Shown here: in pieces, positions 1 to 59,834 of the stretch
Layout of the letters: every line of letters begins with the position of its first letter
Numbering within the stretch: the stretch's first letter is position 1
From: Struthio camelus
Lineage: Eukaryota > Chordata > Aves > Struthioniformes > Struthionidae
Length of the DNA: 64,000 nucleotides
Assembly: GCF_040807025.1 (NCBI RefSeq)
Contig: NC_090980.1
Location: 62,001 to 126,000, forward strand
Direction of reading: 5' to 3'
Notes under the pieces: generated by a model
What the model was told of the DNA's origin: nothing
What the model saw: the letters and a program-made list of their open reading frames with translations, nothing else
Databases searched by the model: none
Made by a program: the position numbers and the translations under genes

Positions 1-8800
<8,800 letters not shown>

Positions 8801-47575: not shown

Positions 47576-50500
47576 TCACCTGCCGGCCGCCGCCTGGCCC
47601 CGACCGTCGCGGGGGCGGAGCCGGGGGGCGTCGGGGGCCCCGGGGGGCGGGCTGCCCCCGCCCTGCCGCGTCCGTGATTGGTCGTTCCGGGCGCCCCGCG
47701 GCGGCCCCTGATTGGCCGGCGGCCCCAGCCCCAGCGCGAGGATTGGCCGGTGGTAGGGGCCGGCCAGCAGCGGGGAGAGACGATTGGCCGCGGCCTCCTG
47801 GCCGGGCGACGCCATTGGGTAGAGGCTGCCGTGGTGGGCGGGGTCCAGCCGGGCGTCAGCCAATGGCAGGAGGAGGGCGGGGCCGCCGGCGCACCCTATT
47901 GGCTGCCCTGGGGTGGGCGGGGCTTCCTGCTTCACCATGGGGCGGGGCCCCGACGTCGACGCCCCATTGGCCGGGTCGGCGGCTTCCGGCTTCTGATTGG
48001 CCGCGGCGGCGCCGGGGGTCCGGGGGGGGCTGGGGGCCGCCGGGGGGGACCCGGGGGAGGCGCTGGCCCGGCCTGGGGGGAGGGGCGGGTTGGGGGGGGT
48101 GTCGAGACCCCCAACCCCCCCCCAGGGACCCCCTGAGACCCCCCAAAACCCCCAGGAACCCCCAGGGACCCTCAACCCCCCCCGAGACCCCTAGGGACCC
48201 CCCCAAAATCCCCTTGGGACCCCCTAAACCCCCTAGGACCCCCCCCAGGGACCCCCAAGGAACCCCCCTCAAGCCCCCCTGGGAACCCCCAGAGATCCTC
48301 AACCCCCCCCCCGAGACCCCCCCGAGACCCCCCATAACCCCCCAGGACCCCCTAGACCCCCCCCAGGGACCCCCCCCAGAACCCCTAGCCCCCCCAGAAC
48401 CCCCCATAACCCCCCCAGGACCCTCTAGACCCCCCAGGACCCCTCCAGGGACCCCCCCATCACCCCCCAGACCCCCCCAAACCCCTAGGACCCCCCATAA
48501 CCCCCCCAGACCCCCCCCACTCACCATTGGGGGTCCGGGGGGCCCCGGGGGGGCCGTCGGGGCTGGGGGGGGCCGGGGGGGGCCGGGTCGCCTTTCCCCG
48601 GAGGATGTCGATGACCTGGGGGGGGCACGGGACACGGTCACGGCCCTATACGGACCCCCCTATAGCCCCCCATACAGGCCCCCTCCCCATAGGACCCCAC
48701 CATATAGACCTCCCCCATAGAGACCCCCCCCAATAGAGACAACCCCATAAGGACCCCACCATGTAGGACCCCCCCCTCCATAAGCACTCCCCAATAGGGA
48801 CCCCCCCATATGGACCCTTCCCCATAGGAACCCCCTATATGGACCGCCCTATAGGGAACCCCCCCTTATGGACCCTCCATAGGGGATCCCCCCGTAAGAC
48901 CCCCCCATATAGACCCCCTCCCCATAGGGGACCCCCCATATGAACCCCCCTATATGGACCCCCCATATGGGACCCTTCCATAGGGGACCCCCCCATATGG
49001 ACCCCCCCAAATAGACCCTCCCCATAGGACCCCCCCCAAAATGCATCCTCTATAAGGACCCCCCATACAGACCCCTCCCCATAGGACCCCCCCATAGGGG
49101 ACCCCTCATATGGACCCCCCCCATATAGACCCCCCCATAGGAAACCCCCTCTTATGGACCCTCCTTAGGAGGCCCCCCATAATGGATCCCCATATAGACC
49201 CCCTCCCCATAGGACCCCCCCTATAGGGGACCCCCCCATACAGACCCCTATATGGACTCCTCCATAGGGCACCCCCCCGTATGGACCCCCCCAAATAGAC
49301 CCTCCCCATAGGACCCCCACCCAAAATGCATCCTCCATAAGGACCCCCCATACAGACCCCTCCCCATAGGACCCCCCCACAGAGGACCCCCCATATGGAC
49401 CCCCCCATATGGACCCCTCCATATGGACCCCTCCATAGGGGACCCCCCCATATGGACCCCCCCATAGGACCCCCCTCAATATGCATCCTCCATAAGGACC
49501 CCCCCCATACAGACCCCTCCCCATAGGACCCCCCATAGGGGACCCCCCCCATAGGACCCCCTATAGGGGACGGGCCGGGGGCACCTGCCGGTTCTTGGCC
49601 ACGGCCAGAGCGGTGTCGTTGTGGCAGTTCTTGAGGGCGCAGTCGGCCCCGCTGCGCACCAGGAGCCGGAGCAGCGGCAGCAGCCCCCGGCCGGCCGCCG
49701 CGTGCAGCGCCGTGCACCCCGCGTACGACTGCGCGTTCACGCTGGCGCCCCGCTGCCGAGGGGCCGCGGCGCCTCAGAACCCCGGAACCGCCCCGGGAAC
49801 CCTCGAAACCGCCCCAAAACCGACCCGGGAACCCTCGAAACCGCCACGGAACCCCTCGAAACCGCCCTGGGAACCCTCGAAACCGCCCCAAAACCGACCC
49901 GGAAACCCTCGAAACCGCCACGGAACCCCTCGAAACCGCCACGGAACCCCCCGAAACCGCCCCGCCCCGCCTGCAGCGCCGTGCGCCCCGCGTACGACTG
50001 CGCGTTCACGCTGGCGCCCCACTGCCGAGGGGCCGCGGCGCCTCAGAACCCCGGAACCGCCCCGGAACCGCCCCGGGAACCCTCGAAACAGCCCCAAAAC
50101 CGACCCGGGAACCCTCGAAACCGCCACGGAACCCCTCAAAACCGCCACAGAACCCCCCGAAACTGCCACGGAACCCCCCGAAACCGCCCTGGGAACCCTC
50201 GAAACCGCCCCGCCCCGCCTGCAGCGCCGTGCACCCCGCGTACGACTGCGCGTTCACGCTGGCGCCCCGCTGCCGAGGGGCCGCGGCGCCTCAGACCCCC
50301 AGAACCGCCCCGAAACTGCCCCGGGAACCCTCAAAACAGCCCCAAAACCGACCCGGGAACCCTCAAAACCGCCACGGAACCCCTCAAAACCGCCACAGAA
50401 CCCCCCGAAACTGCCACGGAACCCCCCGAAACCGCCCTGGGAACCCTCGAAACCGCCCCGCCCCGCCTGCAGGGCCATGCGCCCCGCGTACGACTGCTCC

Positions 50501-53500
50501 TTCATGCTGGCGCCCCGCTGCCGAGGGGCCGCGGCGCCTCAGAACCCCGGAACCGCCCCGGAAACCCTCGAAACCGCCCCGAATCCAACCCGGGAACCCT
50601 CGAAACCGCCACGGAACCCCCCGAAACCGCCACGGAACCCCCCGAAACCGCCCCGCCCCGCCTGCAGCGCCGTGCACCCCGCGTACGACTGCGCGTTCAC
50701 GCTGGCGCCCCGCTGCCGAGGGGCCGCGGTGCCTCAGACCCCCGAAACTGCCCCGGGAACCCTCGAAACCACCCCAAAACCGACCCGGGAACCCTCGAAA
50801 CCGCCACGGAACCCCTCAAAACTGCCACGGAACCCCCCGAAACTGCCACGGAACCCCCCGAAACCGCCACGGAACCCCCCGAAACCGCCCCGCCCCGCCT
50901 GCAGCGCCGTGCGCCCCGCATACGACTGCACCTTCATGCTGGCGCCCCGCTGCCGAGGGGCCGCGGCACCTCAGACCCCCGGAACCGCCCCGAAACTGCC
51001 CCGGGAACCCTCAAAACAGCCCCAAAACCGACCTGGGAACCCTCGAAACCGCCATGGAACCCCTCAAAACCGCCACAGAACCCCCCGAAACTGCCACGGA
51101 ACCCCCCGAAACCGCCCCGCCCCGCCTGCAGGGCCGTGCACCCCGCGTACGACTGCGCGTTCACGCTGGCGCCCCGCTGCCGAGGGGCCGCGGTGCCTCA
51201 GACCCCCGGAACCGCCCCGGAACCGCCCCGGGAACCCTCGAAACCGCCATGGAACCCCTCCAAACCGCCCTGGGAACCCTCGAAACCGCCCCGGAACCCC
51301 CCGAAACCGCCCCGCCCGGCCTGCAGCGCCGTGCGCCCCGCGTACGCCGGCCCGTTCACGCTGGCGCCCCGCTGCCAGGAGCGGCGCTGCGCCGGAGCAC
51401 CTCAGAACTGCCCAATTCGCCCCCAAAACCGGCCCCGAAGCGCCCCGAAGCGCGGCGGCACCTGGATGAGCAGCTGGGCCATGTCGAGGCTGTCGCGCTC
51501 CACGGCGTGCAGCAGCGGCGAGCGGCCGCTCTTGATGTCCTGGGGGGCCCAGCCGGGGGGTCAGCGCCCCCCCCCATGGCACCCCCATTGTGCCCGTTGC
51601 ACCCCCTCTTTCCCCCGCTGCAGCCCCCCACACCCCCCATTGCAGCCCATTATCCTCCCATTGCACCCCCCATTGCACTCCCATTCCCCCCCCGCAGCCC
51701 CCCATTGCCCCCCACTGCAGCCCCCCTCACCCCCCCATTGCACTCCATTATCCTCCCATTGCACCCCCCATTGCCCCCCACTCCAGCCCCATTGCACCCC
51801 CACTGCAGCCCCCATCACCCCCCATCGCACCCCATTATCCTCCCATTGCACCCCCCATTGCCCCCCACTCCAACCCCATTGCCCCCCACTGCAGCCCCCA
51901 TCACCCCCCATTGCACCCCATTATCCTCCCATTGCACCCCCCATTGCCCCCCACTCCAGCCCCATTGCACCCCCACTGCAGCCCCCCTCACCCCCCCATC
52001 GCACCCCCCATTATCCTCCCATTGCACCCCCCATTGCCCCCCACTGCAACCCCCATCACCCCCCCATTGCACCCCCCATTGCCCCCCACTGCAGCCCCAT
52101 TGCCCCCCACTGCAGCCCCCGTCACCCCCCCATTGCACCCCATTATCCTCCCATTGCACCCCCCATCACCCCCCCTTGCACCCCCACTGCAGCCCCCCCA
52201 TTGCACCCCCATTGCCCCCCACTGCAGCCCCCCATTGCACCCCATTGTGCCTCCGTTACCCCCCACTGCAGCCCCCCATCACCCGCTCATTGCATCCCCA
52301 TTGCACCCCCCCAGCAGCACCCCCCAGCACCCCCCAGCGCCCCCCATCGCCCCCCGGCCCCGCTCACCACCGCGTCCACGTCGGCCCCGGCCTCCAGCAG
52401 CAGCTGCGCCGGCTCCCGCGCCCCCGCGCCCACCGCCACGTGCAGCGGCGTCAGCCCTGGGGGGGCACCGGGCACCCCATTGCACCCCCTGCACCCCCCC
52501 GCACCCCCAAAACAGCCCCCTGCAAGCAGCTCTGCGCCCCACTCCCATGCGCTCCTGCTCCCCGCTCCTCTGCCCCCCCCGTTTGCACGCAGCCCCCGTT
52601 GCCCTGAACCCCAACTGCATGCCCCCCCGCGCCCCTGCTCCCCTGCACCCCAATTCCCATGCACCCCTGCTCCCCTCGTTCCCCTGCACCCCCTCCCCTG
52701 CTCCCCAGTTGCATGCACCCCCTGCACCCCAATACCCTGCACCTCCTGCCCCCCAGCAGCACGCACCCGTTGCACCCGCAGCACCCCAGTGGCACGCACC
52801 CCTTGCACCCTAGTTGCATGCACCCCTGCGCCCCTTGCCCCCTAGCAGCACGCACCCCTTGCCCCCCAGTTGCACGCACCCACAGCACCCCAGCAGCACG
52901 CACCCGCTGCACCCGCAGCACCCCAGCGGCACGCACCCACAGCACCCCAGTTGCATGCACCCACTGCTCCCCTGCCCCCCAGCAGCACGCACCCGCTGCA
53001 CCCACAGCACCCCAGTTGCACGCACCCCAATGGCACGCACCCCTTGCACCCCAGTTGCACGCACCCGCTGCACCCGCAGCACCCCAGCGGCACGCACCCA
53101 CAGCACCCCAGTTGCATGCACCCACTGCTCCCCTGCCCCCCAGCAGCACGCACCTGCTGCACCCACAGCACCTCAGCGGCCTGCACCCCTTGCACCCCAG
53201 TTGCACGCACCCACAGCACCCCAGCGGCACGCACCCCTTGCCCCCCAGTGGCCTGCACCCCTTGCCCCCCAGTTGCACGCACCCCTTGCCCCCCAGTGGC
53301 CTGCACCCCTTGCCCCCCAGTTGCACGCACCCCTTGCCCCCCAGCAGCACGCACCCGCTGCACCCACTGCACCCCAGTGGCCTGCACCCCTTGCCCCCCA
53401 GCGGCACGCACCCACTGCACCCCAGCAGCACGCACCCACTGCACCCGCAGCACCCCAGCAGCACGCACCCCTGCACCCCAGTTGCACGCACCTCTTGCAC

Positions 53501-59500: not shown

Positions 59501-59834
59501 TCTCACCTGGGTAGTAGGCGGCGGGCAGGGGGGGGAAGGCGAGAGCCAGGCAGGGGGGGCCGAGGGCGGCGGGGGGGGCGCGGGCCGGGCCGGGGGCGCC
59601 GCTGTCGCCGCGGGGGGCTTTGCCCGGGGGGGGGCCCGGTGCCCCCCCCCCGCCGCCCCCGGCCGCCGCCGCCGCCGCCGCTTCGCGCATCGCCGAGCGC
59701 CGCTTCCGCAGCGGCAGCGACGCCTCGGGCTGCCGGGGGGGGGCCGGGGGGGCCGGGGGGGCCGGGGGGGCCGGGGGGGGCCCCGCCGCCGCCGCCCGCC
59801 ACGTCCGCAGGTCCACGGGCAGCTCGTCCGCCAT
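47576..59834 (-). CDS. BCL3: BCL3, nuclear IkappaB-family ankyrin-repeat coactivator
   Basis: Binds p50 or p52 NF-kappaB homodimers in the nucleus and alters their transcriptional output. Nine exons join in frame: 59507-59834, 58250-58385, 56588-56696, 54018-54219, 52368-52456, 51462-51539, 49585-49752, 48525-48615 and 47576-48072, giving 565 residues (human 454). The N-terminus has [17 protein letters not shown] and AAYYPG as in human BCL3. The ankyrin domain spans about 150-375 with [79 protein letters not shown] and [17 protein letters not shown], followed by [12 protein letters not shown]. The C-terminal exon is Pro/Ser-rich, longer than in human, and holds a SUMO-type VKQE; its 3' half is the least certain part. 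Intron 6 contains seven partial copies of exon 7. Confidence 0.94.
47670..48010. promoter_or_regulatory. CCAAT-box cluster inside the BCL3 terminal exon
   Basis: Nine ATTGG/CCAAT pentamers in 340 bp (for example 47676, 47711, 47742, 47783, 47967, 47994), the same density as in the PPP2R1A and TOMM40 promoters, although here the sequence is read as coding. Confidence 0.5.
48100..48500. repeat. CCCCCAGGGACCCCC simple array, BCL3 intron 8
   Basis: Short C-rich units (AACCCCCCAGGACCC) between the last two exons. Confidence 0.8.
48640..49560. repeat. CCCCCCATATGGACCCCCCC / CCCATAGGAC array, BCL3 intron 7
   Basis: Units of 14-30 bp with ATATGG, CATAGG and GATCC; one block of about 200 bp with AAATGCATCCTC is repeated three times. 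Confidence 0.9.
49753..51461. repeat. Seven tandem partial copies of BCL3 exon 7 in intron 6
   Basis: Each unit (about 196-269 bp) has the acceptor CCCTCGGCAG followed by the first ~55 coding bases of exon 7 ([17 protein letters not shown]), then GCGGGGCGG and a run of 20-30 bp GGAACCCTCGAAACCGCC repeats. Copy starts on the minus strand are near 50021, 50269, 50517, 50713, 50949, 51176 and 51373; the full exon starts at 49752. The farthest copy is the most diverged. Confidence 0.9.
51545..52340. repeat. CATTGCACCCCCCATTGCCC array, BCL3 intron 5
   Basis: Units of 14-17 bp with CACTGCAGCCCC and CATTATCCTCC in a higher-order unit of about 120 bp. Confidence 0.9.
52470..54010. repeat. CCCCAGCAGCACGCACCCGC array, BCL3 intron 4
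   Basis: About 75 units of 18-24 bp (CCCCAGTTGCACGCACCC, CCCCAGCGGCACGCACCC, TTGCCCC). Confidence 0.92.
54245..56560. repeat. Two arrays of opposite strand bias, BCL3 intron 3
   Basis: 54245-55110 is G-rich (GGGGGGCACGGGGTGCATGG). 55180-55310 has three CAAGGCCGTGCACACGCGTG copies. 55310-56560 is C-rich (CCCTGCACCCCCGGGCACCC, TTGAACCCTGCA). The bias flips sharply near 55.3 kb. Confidence 0.9.
56700..58230. repeat. BCL3 intron 2: GGGGGGCACGG tract, unique island, GGGGGTCCATGGGG array
   Basis: 56700-56940 is a GGGGACACGGGG simple tract. 56950-57180 is mostly unique with a TGACGTCAAGCGACGTCA pair near 57100. 57180-58230 is a G-rich minisatellite of about 60 bp (GGGGGAAATGGGGGTCCTAT, AGGGGGGATGGGGGGGTCC), later with CCCACGGGTGGGGGG. 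Confidence 0.88.
58390..59490. repeat. BCL3 intron 1 arrays
   Basis: 58390-58980 carries the GGGGCCCAGGCGTCCGGGGG core, about 22 units. 59060-59480 is a minisatellite with GGTGCAGGGGCTTTCGGAGG and GGGGGTCCCGGGGTGCACGG, about 100-115 bp per unit. Confidence 0.9.

Follow-up and report, generated by a model that had tools for sequence, protein, structure and literature searches.

It has been shown that sequences on the dot chromosomes of chicken undergo stuttering (Hron et al. 2026, Genome Biol Evol; PMC12954441). In exon stuttering, as set out in the main text of that work, a lateral part of an exon is copied together with its splice site through the adjacent intron (PMC12954441). The chicken screen reported it in 115 genes and 236 introns, 190 of these on dot chromosomes, and in 3.4% of dot-chromosome introns; the exon parts measured 20-187 nt (median 36), the copies numbered 1-44 (median 4) and the median span was 1,751 bp (PMC12954441). 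Length was variable in 183 of the 192 exon-stuttering introns assessed, and such variability is a main feature of stuttering (PMC12954441). In amphioxus, 'mirages' were described in the globin genes BflGb6 and BflGb9 and in Adh3; there, the edges of a cluster escape homogenisation, and mirages were proposed as a route of intron gain (PMC3087553). Here we describe an array of exon copies in a BCL3 intron that is very probably a product of exon stuttering on a bird dot microchromosome, the copies being by-products without selected function.

The window, that is, the whole stretch of DNA analysed, comprises 64,000 bases (C39:62001-126000) with 73% GC, no N and a tandem-repeat cover of 77%. From translation and splice context, an orthologue of BCL3 was placed on its minus strand, from about 59834 down to at least 48525, the start near 59834 being presumed from human BCL3. 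The joined exons 4-8 (191 aa) found 1k1a, the structure of BCL3, as their best PDB match (E 4.1e-85) over the full length, which confirms the gene name proposed in the first-pass annotation. A PDB search limited to exons 6-7 (82 aa) placed 1k1a tenth, after ankyrins and designed ankyrin-repeat proteins. Exons 4 and 5 match each other at 47-49 bits, which we put down to ankyrin-repeat kinship. The parts of the gene that matter here are the following:

56696-56588, minus strand: BCL3 exon 3, from splice context
54219-54018, minus strand: BCL3 exon 4, from splice context
52456-52368, minus strand: BCL3 exon 5, from splice context
51462..51539, minus strand: BCL3 exon 6, donor CAG/gtgccg
49753..51461, minus strand: BCL3 intron 6, 1709 nt, 72% GC, holding the seven-copy exon-edge array
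49585..49752, minus strand: real BCL3 exon 7, 168 nt, phase 0, acceptor ctcggcag/CGG, donor CAG/gtgccc
from 48615, minus strand: BCL3 exon 8, from splice context

In the parts viewed, intron 7 (48800-49560) is filled by a short-unit array that is catatggaccccc-like and intron 5 (51611-52340) by another that is ccattgcacccc-like. Exons of PPP2R1A and TOMM40 are also present in the window, together with an immunoglobulin V-set exon (Pfam V-set) that we take to belong to NECTIN2; BCL3, NECTIN2 and TOMM40 are neighbours in human 19q13.

Seven decoy copies of the acceptor and 5' coding end of exon 7 had been noted at 49753..51461, and all seven were recovered, the interval being exactly intron 6, bounded by the last base of exon 6 at 51462 and the first of exon 7 at 49752. 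The first exon bases of the copies lie at 50021, 50269, 50517, 50712, 50949, 51176 and 51371. An exact-pattern search found six of the seven and missed the one at 50021, which has one change within the pattern. In the list below, identity is given for bases 1-51 of the real exon 7 and for the flank, the 25 intron bases preceding the exon:

49972..50021, minus strand: decoy copy 1, closest to the real exon; exon bases 48/51, flank 25/25
50220..50269, minus strand: decoy copy 2, its 50 nt the same as in the real exon; exon bases 50/51, flank 25/25
50468..50517, minus strand: decoy copy 3, a variant exon part; exon bases 44/51, flank 25/25
50663..50712, minus strand: decoy copy 4, its 50 nt the same as in the real exon; exon bases 50/51, flank 24/25
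50900..50949, minus strand: decoy copy 5, a variant exon part; exon bases 45/51, flank 24/25
51127..51176, minus strand: decoy copy 6, with one synonymous change; exon bases 49/51, flank 24/25
51322..51371, minus strand: decoy copy 7, at the array edge with a diverged flank; exon bases 46/51, flank 8/25

As noted, acceptor and 5' coding end are both included in the copies, with an acceptor flank that is identical or differs at one of 25 positions in six of the seven; the flank of the copy at 51371, at the upstream edge, has diverged and shares 8/25 bases. Likewise, the exon part had been described as about 55 bp ending at CTGCAG. This motif is indeed found in the copies, but strict identity of the exon part stops after 50 nt, at CTGCA, since the next base makes CTGCAC in the real exon and CTGCAG in the copies. 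Gapped matches of the copies to exon 7 reach 65-66 nt. All copies begin at exon base 1, although the pairwise match for 50021 has its edge at base 2, as the first base differs. From the real exon outwards, the spacing is 269, 248, 248, 195, 237, 227 and 195; the units are 89-97% alike with gaps, the array spans about 1.67 kb, and no stretch of at least 90 nt free of tandem repeats (TRF) was found between 49780 and 51390. The near-identity of the copies and the real exon shows that the array is recent or homogenised. The exon 6 donor is followed after 90 nt by decoy copy 7. These 90 nt were considered as an ancestral short intron, but in only four of seven cases did their local alignment to the spacers score above all 200 shuffles, and the idea stays a lead.

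Chance similarity is excluded as the source of the copies. The top match of exon 7 in intron 6 scored 98.7 bits, whereas 200 dinucleotide shuffles of the intron gave 37.4 bits at most. Against the window without 49001-51540 the top match was 33.7 bits, and against four 10-kb tiles from C39 and one from C35 it was 23.8-33.7 bits. By BLASTn, the seven copies scored 71.6-98.7 bits, all above 42.1 bits, which is the published threshold (PMC12954441) although our settings may differ from those of the paper; the maximum in the reversed window was 26.5. When the whole assembly (1.45 Gb, 262 contigs) was searched, one place among the 38 matches listed was at 100%, and the others were at 67-78% over parts. 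Partial matches of the intron array at 67-78% lay on C29, C33, C35, C36, C37, C94, C131, C166 and C190; these look-alikes on other contigs perhaps reflect the recurrent origin of similar GC-rich motifs.

The contig that carries the window, C39, measures 443,477 bp and looks like a bird dot microchromosome. Its four sampled 10-kb tiles had a GC content of 0.73-0.75 and a tandem-repeat cover of 0.59-0.75, and the C35 tile had 0.74 and 0.71, whereas one tile each from C1, C10, C20 and C41 gave 0.36-0.61 and 0-0.02. A DM-domain cluster was seen on C41 (89.9 Mb), with no DM match on C40, and ankyrin loci occur in two pairs on C40 and C41 whose scores are equal or nearly so. Among the six contigs whose lengths were seen, the small C39 is followed by the large C40 and C41. 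We infer that C41 is the Z, C40 a weakly degenerated W, the sex chromosomes being near-homomorphic, and C1-C39 the numbered autosomes, so that the species would be a bird, perhaps a palaeognath.

A screen for stuttering in the window started from 24 exon peptides; exact matching placed 23 of them, TOMM40 exon 2 being the one missed. The queries were the coding pieces that had been recognised, some of them parts of exons, in a window that holds more sequence than these 23. At 42.1 bits or more, BCL3 exon 7 was the only one of them with copies in its neighbouring intron. Trial queries for BCL3 exon 1, extending into intron 1, and for exon 8, with its proline-rich part, gave many matches above 42.1 bits, and in the reversed window these queries also reached 84.2 and 61.7 bits. 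Exon 1 was left out of the count because of its low complexity, and exon 8 was trimmed to 36 nt. The resulting frequency of one in 23 screened exons is of the same order as the published 3.4%, a rough comparison of exons with introns. A long array of about 164-174-bp units was seen at 1797-5294, in the PPP2R1A intron between the exon ending VKAELRQ and the exon starting YFRNLC; TRF resolved 1797-4642 into 16.9 copies of 174 at 94%. It had no match of at least 42.1 bits to its two flanking exons and is therefore, as far as tested, intronic stuttering.

Under exon stuttering, a block reaching from the 3' part of intron 6 to base 50 of exon 7 would have been tandemly duplicated and multiplied upstream, and the array would later have grown and shrunk while the edge copy stayed the most diverged in its flank. 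Because the block ends within the exon, the final copy always retains the entire exon; the full exon is kept at the 3' end and the coding sequence is therefore unharmed. In such GC-rich DNA, the engine may have been slippage, template switching or unequal exchange. We also infer that the length of the array is polymorphic between individuals. An enrichment of G-quadruplex motifs was considered as a driver and found no support: intron 6 has five on the coding strand and none on the other, the level of the shuffles (average 5.0 in 500), so that there is no enrichment.

The exon parts of the copies show no sign of coding constraint. Compared with the real exon, 15 non-synonymous and 3 synonymous changed codons were counted over 7 x 16 codons, a plain count without a formal test in which the changes are not independent, because some are common to several copies; with this ratio there is no hint of constraint on the exon parts. 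This speaks against the main alternative, which we consider unlikely, namely that the decoys are used: exon 6 would be joined to a decoy acceptor, and the transcript would either leave at a gtcggt donor or run on into a stop, so that copy number tunes BCL3 output. By the first route, 41-55 Gly/Phe-rich residues would be inserted in frame in the BCL3 ankyrin domain; by the second, the stop would feed nonsense-mediated decay.

Splice signals were scored with approximate human matrices. On these matrices, the decoy acceptors reach 1.13-2.64 versus 1.35 for the real exon 7, which is compatible with their use. With the decoys and the real acceptor roughly on a par, acceptor strength on this measure cannot explain the choice; among 79 AGs scored from intron 6, 15, including the real acceptor, reach or exceed the score of the latter. 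The first-pass annotation had credited each unit with a good 3' splice site, which was overstated given the 1.35 bits of the exon 7 acceptor; four of five other scored BCL3 acceptors are at 4.6-7.5 and one is at -2.76. The real exon 7 donor is also weak (3.68), and five of the seven decoys have a downstream GT donor of 3.72-6.05. When donors at least 20 nt from either acceptor were taken, these five decoys yielded candidate cassettes of 144, 165, 165, 165 and 123 nt, all in frame and stop-free, a further point in favour of use:

51033..51176, minus strand: hypothetical cassette of 144 nt, decoy 6 acceptor, donor CAG/gtcggt at 6.05 bits
50105..50269, minus strand: hypothetical cassette of 165 nt, decoy 2 acceptor, donor CGG/gtcggt at 3.72 bits
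50353-50517 and 50785-50949, minus strand: hypothetical cassettes of 165 nt, predicted, homologous to that of decoy 2
49899-50021, minus strand: hypothetical cassette of 123 nt, predicted

However, the five cassettes are not independent, because their donors are one homologous site repeated, and their agreement in frame is close to a single 1-in-3 event copied five times. A sixth acceptor-donor pairing, of 197 nt from the acceptor at 50021, breaks the frame; decoys 50712 and 51371 lack a downstream gtcggt donor of this kind, and this donor carries a C at +3, which is rare among real donors. Read-through from a decoy acceptor fits the second route, as in all seven cases a premature stop falls between the 58th and the 95th codon, for copy 50021 only inside the real exon 7 and out of frame; decoy use without a downstream donor would trigger nonsense-mediated decay. 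In amphioxus, RT-PCR of the globin genes and the Adh3 data suggest that regular splicing is undisturbed by such copies (PMC3087553). In BCL3, too, regular splicing of exon 6 to the real exon 7 would be expected to dominate: under exon stuttering, the spliceosome most likely still pairs these two, and occasional decoy use would lead mostly to premature stops.

A stronger form of decoy use is marginally less probable again. It holds that the decoys form a set of nearly complete micro-cassette exons in frame, and that certain individuals splice some of these into their BCL3 mRNA, giving inherited, copy-number-dependent protein variants; if true, stuttering would be a source of exon birth in vertebrates and of variants of an NF-kB regulator. 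Least probable, and very unlikely in our judgement, is an assembly artefact or a wrong copy number, since, although GC-rich repeats are difficult to assemble, the seven copies have different changes and unit lengths, the window is free of N, a comparable PHF8 array in chicken was verified by raw nanopore reads (PMC12954441), and unequal unit lengths with 89-97% unit identity with gaps argue against a simple duplicated-contig artefact.

Ordinary intronic minisatellites are tandem arrays with sub-repeats in an intron. The BCL3 array differs from them in that its unit includes coding exon and an acceptor. For this reason the array had been called an unusual minisatellite, which is fair for vertebrates at large, but the type has been described for avian dot-chromosome genes (PMC12954441) and earlier in amphioxus (PMC3087553). 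In the literature searched, nothing relevant was found on BCL3 minisatellites, and the term 'exon stuttering' was met only in PMC12954441. BCL3 is absent from the main text of that paper and, by a term search, from those of PMC8449477 and PMC9974502. In the main text of PMC12954441 the word 'mirage' does not occur, and 'amphioxus' appears solely within the title of a reference.

As in chicken exon stuttering, the BCL3 copies hold the exon edge and the acceptor and form an imperfect tandem array in the adjacent intron; the exon part of 50 nt, the seven copies and the span of about 1.67 kb are within the published ranges, and the setting is likewise rich in GC and tandem repeats (PMC12954441). 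The array shows each anatomical mark of exon stuttering that was tested, and we therefore regard it as a new instance of a known process. The published screen is of chicken (PMC12954441); the present array comes from one assembly, apparently of another bird, and adds BCL3 to a freshly described instability. It also provides a compact test of how an exon is recognised behind seven locally about equal acceptors. The amphioxus mirages have the same anatomy, and the edge copy of BCL3 is the most diverged in its flank, as cluster edges are there (PMC3087553). They belong, however, to a cephalochordate, in which RT-PCR suggested regular splicing (PMC3087553). Taken together, avian stuttering and amphioxus mirages point to a mutational process of general occurrence by which exon edges are copied.
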